Below the pieces are notes generated by a model. It was not told the origin of the DNA and made no database searches. It saw only the letters and a program-made list of their open reading frames with translations. Position numbers and translations under genes: made by a program. A stretch of DNA of 47,397 nucleotides from an uncultured SAR116 cluster alpha proteobacterium. GTDB taxonomy: Bacteria; Pseudomonadota; Alphaproteobacteria; Puniceispirillales; Marisalimonadaceae. Positions 6,025 to 6,933 of this stretch are shown in pieces (the first letter of the stretch is position 1; each line of letters starts with the position of its first letter). The stretch lies in NCBI GenBank assembly GCA_902590245.1, contig CACIWG010000001.1, forward strand, positions 65,747-113,143, given 5' to 3'.

Positions 6025-6423
6025 TTAATAAAGCCTGCTTGTCTCGAGTATTCTTATTATAAACATTAGTGTAAAATAACCAGCATTTATCATTAAAACA
6101 AAGCTTAACAAAAGATTAATAGAAAATGGGAGTTGATTTTGGAGAAAATCTCTCCAAAAATACTTTTCTAAGTAAAAGGCCAACTCTGTATACCAAATTG
6201 TAAGAAGTGCTGCATGAATAATGTAAAGAGTATATTTGTAGTTATCATACAGAATTTCATTTAATATAAAAAAACTTAAAAAAAATATTATTGAAAAAGT
6301 TACTTTAACAAAAAAGTTTTTGAAATATACAAACTTCCGACTGAATTTAAAGTGAAGCAATAAATAAATCAAAACAACATGAAAACTGCAAACTAAAAAT
6401 AATTTAACTAATTTAGGATCCAT
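6025..6423 (-). CDS. Small integral membrane protein of unknown function (132 aa)
   Basis: I do not recognise this protein. It has about four hydrophobic helices (roughly residues 5-25, 38-57, 64-85 and 98-125) separated by short basic loops. There are no cysteine pairs or catalytic motifs. Its start codon overlaps the stop codon of the 69-residue gene upstream by one base (TAATG), which suggests translational coupling and possibly a joint membrane complex. The helices and the coupling are seen directly. No function can be assigned. Confidence 0.6.
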   Translation of the reverse strand: MDPKLVKLFLVCSFHVVLIYLLLHFKFSRKFVYFKNFFVKVTFSIIFFLSFFILNEILYDNYKYTLYIIHAALLTIWYTELAFYLEKYFWRDFLQNQLPFSINLLLSFVLMINAGYFTLMFIIRILETSRLY

Positions 6424-6632
6424 TAAATCAACAATAGTGAATAACTTAAAATACCAAATGGAAGACCAATTGCAGCTCCTAAAGATAATGTTTTATTAAA
6501 AGATTTAATTTTAAAAAAACCTAAAAGAAGTATCCAAGCTGTAAAAGGAACTGCAAGGCCAAATAAAAATCCTATAATAAGGTTTGCATTATTTGCACTC
6601 CATTTTTTTGGACTATCTAAGAAATCATTCAT
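6423..6632 (-). CDS. Small membrane protein of unknown function (69 aa)
   Basis: A 69-residue protein with a hydrophilic N-terminus (NDFLDSPKKWSANNAN) and two hydrophobic helices (about 17-40 and 48-68). The loop between them is short and basic, giving a helical hairpin. It is followed by the 132-residue membrane protein gene with a one-base stop/start overlap. I do not recognise the family. Coding status is supported by the coupling and by composition typical of a membrane protein, not by any known motif. Confidence 0.55.
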   Translation of the reverse strand: MNDFLDSPKKWSANNANLIIGFLFGLAVPFTAWILLLGFFKIKSFNKTLSLGAAIGLPFGILSYSLLLI

Positions 6633-6687
6633 AAATTTTACATAATATAAAATCAGTTATTTATCAATTGAATACATTTATAAATAG

Positions 6688-6693
6688 TATAAT
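6688..6693 (+). promoter_or_regulatory. Candidate -10 element (TATAAT) for the small non-AUG gene
   Basis: A perfect TATAAT lies about 40 bases before the frame that starts near 6733-6736. The nearest -35-like hexamer, TTGAAT, is only about 14 bases upstream, so the match is incomplete. In such AT-rich DNA a single hexamer is weak evidence. Confidence 0.3.
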
Positions 6694-6735
6694 CTGTTAA
6701 TTATTTTTATATAATTAAATTTTACAGGAGACATT

Positions 6736-6933
6736 ATCAACGACTCTAATACAAATTTTTGGGATTGGTGGAACGATGGCGAAAGTAAATTTAAGAAAAT
6801 AACTTACCTGTTTAATAACTGGTGGAATAATGGAAAATATAAACCCTTAAAAGCTATATATGTCTCTATAATTTTACATATAATATTTGCAATGTTTTAC
6901 GGAATATATTGGATTTTTGTAAATTTATTTTAA
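6736..6933 (+). CDS. Small Trp-rich membrane protein with a non-AUG start (about 65 aa)
   Basis: A frame ending in TAA at 6931-6933 codes for a plausible small protein, but it has no ATG, GTG or TTG before its last 13 codons. It begins after an in-frame stop at 6712-6714. An AGGAG at 6726-6730 lies 5 bases before ATC (6736) and 2 bases before ATT (6733); one of these is the likely start, with ATC better spaced. The product has a polar N-terminal half with two related elements, FWDWWNDGESKFK and FNNWWNNGKYKPLK. One C-terminal transmembrane helix follows (from about AIYVSIILHIIF to the end). It fills most of an otherwise empty 408-base gap. The function is unknown. A point mutation from ATG to ATC would give the same picture. 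Confidence 0.55.
   Translation: MNDSNTNFWDWWNDGESKFKKITYLFNNWWNNGKYKPLKAIYVSIILHIIFAMFYGIYWIFVNLF

Follow-up and report, generated by a model that had tools for sequence, protein, structure and literature searches.

To our knowledge, only a few bacterial genes have been described in which a non-canonical start codon is conserved. In E. coli, the AUU starts of infC and pcnB limit translation of these genes, and that of infC couples it to the level of IF3. Short proteins with one membrane span form a second relevant group, exemplified by CydX and AcrZ, which attach to larger complexes. IF3 discriminates against start codons that do not end in G, from which AUG, GUG and UUG escape, and the anticodon stem of the initiator tRNA has been tied to this inspection (PMC4611024). 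The AUU start of pcnB is cited in PMC13009471. In S. aureus, cvfC1 and ccpN start with AUU and AUA, respectively, carry extended Shine–Dalgarno (SD) sequences, and reach about 10% of the output of an AUG start; cvfC1 was reported beside the AUA start of infC (PMC13009471). The nearest parallel among small proteins was published in 2026.

The WW gene and its conservation

The window, i.e. the whole 47,397-nucleotide stretch of DNA analysed here, derives from an uncultured SAR116 cluster alphaproteobacterium and contains a stop-to-stop frame on its forward strand (6715–6933), which is preceded by a TAA (6712–6714) and closed by the stop codon TAA (6931–6933). Read from the ATC at 6736, the frame encodes a WW-repeat membrane protein (WW; CDS 6736–6933, forward strand, 65 codons plus stop, AUC start) with the sequence INDSNTNFWDWWNDGESKFKKITYLFNNWWNNGKYKPLKAIYVSIILHIIFAMFYGIYWIFVNLF. 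Two WWN-G-x-x-K elements at residues 11–21 and 29–39 correspond to WW repeat 1 (WWNDGESKFKK, 6766–6798, forward strand) and WW repeat 2 (WWNNGKYKPLK, 6820–6852, forward strand), both made up of near-invariant columns. They are followed by a C-terminal membrane helix (6853–6921, forward strand; hydropathy of 2.06 over 19 residues) with an invariant Ser44 and His48. An SD sequence, AGGAG (6726–6730, forward strand), is identical in four species of the genus. Of the 72 codons of the frame, only the ATG at index 59 is a canonical start, and it is absent from the other species.

A preliminary description of the window had suggested that ATC or ATT serves as the start of a small membrane protein, in a frame with an AGGAG, a repeated WWN-G-K element and a C-terminal membrane helix, bounded by stops and devoid of ATG, GTG or TTG near its 5' end. 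Each of these elements was found in the sequence, and the proposal as a whole is supported, with ATC 6736 fitting the SD spacing better than ATT 6733. The expectation that automatic gene callers would miss the gene was also borne out, as the list of ATG-, GTG- and TTG-started open reading frames (ORFs) of the window has no entry at this locus. The description went too far in letting the frame explain most of the surrounding gap: of the 408 nt that separate 6632 from 7041, the frame takes up 198, or about half.

Genome comparison identifies 6736–6933 as a real protein-coding gene. Conservation of the frame in relatives, which the preliminary description had named as decisive, was looked for and found: a first search returned homologues in 21 of 61 genomes, and a search with a 12-sequence profile returned them in 36 of the 58 genomes of the SAR116 family, with E = 4e-33 for the family profile, well outside what chance would give, and E-values to 1e-33 across genera. 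We refer to the genus of the window's genome as g1, to the nearest genus as g4, and to the sister genus as g2, which together with g3 makes up the sister clade. Within g1, the dN/dS of the gene is 0.08–0.30 and changes are concentrated at third codon positions. The invariant core comprises two copies of WWN-G--K--K and, further on in the membrane helix, a Ser and a His; g3 encodes a short relative with a single repeat. Among 385 sampled genomes of the class, WW was found in the window's own genome only, which makes it an orphan family of this SAR116 family, to which it seems to be confined on the basis of these searches. A single match in Sphingobacterium (L082, E = 3e-4) was regarded as fortuitous.

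Start codons across genera and a proposed mechanism

The same comparison reveals that the canonical start is missing throughout one clade. All six carriers in g1 (the window, AG-919-E16, AG-426-A06, AH-326-A17, and MED585) and g4 (AG-426-B08 as its sole carrier) lack ATG, GTG and TTG before the conserved core. At the start position, three g1 species have ATC and two ATT, and the g4 species has ATT. The ATT of MED585 is preceded, at a distance of four codons, by a TGA in the same frame. The preliminary description had considered that homologues might carry ATG at this codon and thereby expose a sequencing error or strain mutation. Such homologues do exist, namely in more than 20 g2 species and in the short form of g3, but ATG is absent from all g1 and g4 carriers. 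In the rpoB tree, g1 and g4 form one clade (100/99) and g2 and g3 another (100/98). Thus, a single change between AUG and AUH (AUA, AUC or AUU) suffices, and the AUC/AUU start has been inherited and conserved, which excludes a strain mutation or sequencing error. In part of g2 (L013, L014), the WW gene is preceded by TTGAAA, 17 nt, TAAAAT and 5 nt before the ATG; judged by this arrangement, its mRNA is apparently leaderless there, contrasting with the SD-led AUH start in g1.

We consider it probable that the locus encodes an AUC-started, single-span protein of 65 residues whose initiation with fMet is SD-driven and whose output is low and IF3-sensitive. We infer these last properties as follows. 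Ordinary initiator fMet-tRNA would decode the AUC at 6736, Met would be the first residue of the mature protein, and the AGGAG 5 nt upstream would position the ribosome at this codon. The AUH start is inherited in g1 and g4, with AUG in the sister clade. Like the starts of the infC/pcnB type, the WW start codon (ATC or ATT) does not end in G. Because IF3 discriminates against such starts, the weak, SD-dependent WW start probably keeps output low and lets it rise when IF3 is scarce, and the AUA-started infC would fall under the same rule.

Other AUH-start genes and possible neutral drift

AUH starts were surveyed on contigs C1 and C2 by comparison with other g1 species and in 400 kb more by coding potential (604 kb in total). 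A gene was counted as AUH-started where its conserved domain, e.g. in a profile match, sets in before the first canonical codon. Nine of the 593 gene-like ORFs in these 604 kb qualified, WW included. The infC gene (within G000:C2:78600–80400) starts with AUA, and ATA was found in every SAR116-family genome where the infC start was readable. The tmk gene, usually regarded as essential, has an AUU start in g1 (L148, 11321–11983), with an in-frame TAA directly before the ATT in four species and the ATT placed 6 nt after GGAG. A MATE transporter gene has AAGGAG, 6 nt, and ATA. The survey also yielded egtB-egtD and an amidohydrolase gene; egtB is without a recognisable SD, and its start position is approximate. 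Three further cases were checked in this genome only: a carboxyltransferase gene (mmdA/pccB type), a gene for an AbrB-like membrane protein (no recognisable SD, approximate start position), and anmK (AAGGAG, 6 nt, ATT). The margin for anmK is small, with the profile matching from residue 17–19 and the first ATG at residue 23, and the case rests mainly on the SD. Several other survey candidates were discarded as antisense, tRNA or over-extended frames. Overall, an SD is present in seven of the nine AUH genes vs. 74 of 186 ATG genes (p = 0.035).

Two further observations concern individual starts. The g1 infC start region, ATA AAC GAC/GAT TCA AAA, resembles the WW start, ATC AAC GAC TCT AAT (ATH AAC GAC TCN), a likeness given no weight here. 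Furthermore, CTG seems to be the start codon of an lptB-like ABC transporter gene both in g2, where it follows AAGGAGATTAAA (L193, G023:C2:107297–108148, reverse strand), and in g4 (L209, G015:C3:20771–21583, reverse strand). Both g2 and g4 have the infC AUA and this CUG case, and g4 has one further AUU case. No AUH start was found among approximately 185 conserved ORFs of two genomes of other SAR116 families, a difference (p = 0.04) that comes from a small comparison with infC outside the sampled stretches.

It is conceivable that the SAR116 genera g1 and g4 made AUA/AUU/AUC initiation a regular expression class, comprising about 1.5% of genes including tmk and sharing control by IF3 supply, with infC AUA-started as well, a suggestion we regard as speculative and rather unlikely to hold in full. 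If it were true, all genes of this class would be shortened or overlooked by standard annotation. A serious rival, with an appreciable chance of being correct even if we lean away from it, is that AUH starts arose neutrally through AT-driven drift, are tolerated beside a strong SD and have no regulatory meaning. The genome has a G+C content of approximately 30%, the AUH-started genes are functionally unrelated, AUC and AUU interchange between species, and the genomes sampled from other SAR116 families yielded no AUH start. However, a single transversion would restore AUG, yet none of the six g1 and g4 carriers has reverted even though synonymous distances reach about 1, and the AUU of tmk has likewise been retained across g1.

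Genetic code and decoding machinery

It is improbable that an altered genetic code or initiator tRNA has turned AUA, AUU and AUC into ordinary starts in this clade. What speaks for this reading is the initiator tRNA of the family, which has an AGG/CCU anticodon stem in the region inspected by IF3; the usual GGG/CCC stem was not found in g1. Its anticodon is nevertheless a normal CAU, and the same AGG/CCU stem is present in g1, g2 and g3 alike. Since g2 and g3, in which the WW start is ATG, share this stem, it was ruled out as the cause of the AUH state in g1 and g4. In rpoB of genome G000, AUA codons align with Ile in 18 cases and with Met in none, so internal AUA is read as Ile and AUH starts reflect initiation and not recoding; most genes are, moreover, still ATG-started. 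In the IF3 alignment, the g1 protein retains the conserved C-terminal residues without obvious loss, and nothing in IF3 accordingly accounts for the frequent AUH starts.

Which codon starts the WW gene

An SD match of at least four bases precedes 74 of 186 ATG genes of this genome. The spacing is 5–8 nt in 65 of these 74 genes and 2 nt in none of them. The ATC at 6736–6738 (forward strand; ATT in AG-426-A06 and MED585) lies 5 nt after the AGGAG, and by this measure it is the most likely WW start. The alternative, less likely candidate is the ATT one codon upstream (6733–6735, forward strand), only 2 nt from the AGGAG. In its favour, four g1 species agree in having ATT at 6733, while position 6736 alternates between ATC and ATT. 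We give it little credence, given that none of the SD-bearing genes uses a 2-nt spacing and that the g1 locus L005 has an ATT only at the position equivalent to 6736, with AAC before it. The SD is AGGTG at this locus and GGAG at the g4 locus L016, each with an ATT 5–6 nt away; the single ATT of MED585 sits 5 nt after its SD, and that of AG-426-B08 6 nt. Across L001–L005 and L016, comparison finds an AUH codon at normal SD distance (5–6 nt) in every case.

That the ATC at 6736 stems from a sequencing error or from an ATG mutated in the window's genome alone, with the gene dead or mis-assembled there, has almost no probability left. A change of one base would turn ATC into ATG, the codon found in the sister genus, but the five g1 species, with proteins that are 66–95% identical, and the g4 species are all without a canonical start, and the frame is still under purifying selection. 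Because these sequences come from independent single-cell genomes and a metagenome bin, sequencing error is untenable. A non-coding reading, i.e. a conserved RNA or a chance open frame, might be prompted by the absent canonical start and the small size of the frame in AT-rich DNA, but can be dismissed in view of the low dN/dS, the profile E-values across genera, the ATG-started g2 homologues, and an Rfam scan of the window that returned no match.

Neighbourhood and upstream region

Two divergent genes precede the WW gene in g1. The nearer one, m69 (6423–6632, reverse strand), encodes a 69-aa membrane protein and is linked to WW: it occurs in four of the 58 family genomes, all of them g1 genomes with a complete WW locus, and in none of the other 54. 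In the fifth g1 carrier, the contig ends 80 nt upstream of the WW start, between WW and m69. Behind m69 lies m132 (6025–6423, reverse strand), which encodes a membrane protein of 132 aa and stands beside m69 and WW in g1 loci. MED585 has kept the m132-m69-WW trio amid otherwise different neighbouring genes. In g2, the WW gene is located after xseA; with neighbours differing in this way between g1 and g2, no partner is conserved across genera.

The intergenic region contains a conserved block (6657–6696, no strand assigned) with 30 consecutive identical columns in four species, which possibly serves as a shared promoter or operator, to judge from its conservation. Short palindromes, TCAATTGA and ATTTATAAAT, are found within it. 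A -10-like TATAAT (6710–6715, forward strand), also identical in four species, would give a short leader containing the SD; no convincing -35 element was found near it, and a regional promoter scan was at chance level. A promoter at this position is thus conjectural.

In MED585 (L054), degraded tRNA-fMet fragments at 250–312 and 6249–6270 flank the m132-m69-WW block, one approximately 50 nt past the WW gene on its downstream side and the other 5.7 kb upstream of it, and the block may have moved there as part of a tRNA-fMet island. Partial 3' copies of tRNA-fMet, in one orientation and 1.5–9 kb apart, occur on many contigs (e.g. G016:C1 and G029:C1), a pattern that tandem integrative islands inserted at this tRNA would be expected to produce.

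Predicted fold and possible role

AlphaFold2, run with 30 sequences, predicted with high confidence two helices at residues 4–31 and 36–64 (mean pLDDT of 90.7), of which one spans the membrane. In this model, the first is predicted to be an amphipathic, Trp-rich helix on the inner membrane face and the second a membrane helix. Searches of Pfam and NCBIfam gave no match for the family, a PDB sequence search and Foldseek against PDB returned nothing significant for the protein, and PHROGs and PADLOC yielded only weak, composition-type matches, with the PHROG matches near E = 1e-3 reflecting hydrophobic-helix similarity. We infer topology and role from this anatomy, and our best guess is that WW is most likely a low-abundance, membrane-anchored accessory protein or regulator.

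Comparison with known systems

The WW start adds a case to a rare but known kind; of more interest is the clustering of AUH starts within a single lineage. If these starts are real, gene catalogues of abundant ocean bacteria systematically lose small proteins and clip N-termini. As AUG and AUH homologues of one gene exist in sister genera, a direct test of the purpose of a weak start is possible.

Compared to proteins of the CydX/AcrZ type, WW is similarly short, Trp-rich, endowed with one membrane helix and easily missed by annotation, although no sequence or fold match was found for it and its two WWNDG-K repeats are peculiar to the WW family. With E. coli infC and pcnB, it shares a start codon that does not end in G. 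Their products are IF3 and poly(A) polymerase, whereas in the SAR116 genome infC uses AUA and AUH starts extend to the nine ORFs found in the survey. The closest likeness is to S. aureus cvfC1, which is also small (61 aa), has an AUU start with a strong SD, and is conserved genus-wide (PMC13009471). In contrast to the alphaproteobacterial membrane protein WW, cvfC1 encodes a putative zinc-finger protein and heads an operon in a Firmicute, and the tests made show no relationship between the two protein families. Moreover, the start of cvfC1 was proven by ribosome profiling and a reporter, whereas that of WW is supported by comparison, in which the AUH state recurs in six species of two genera.
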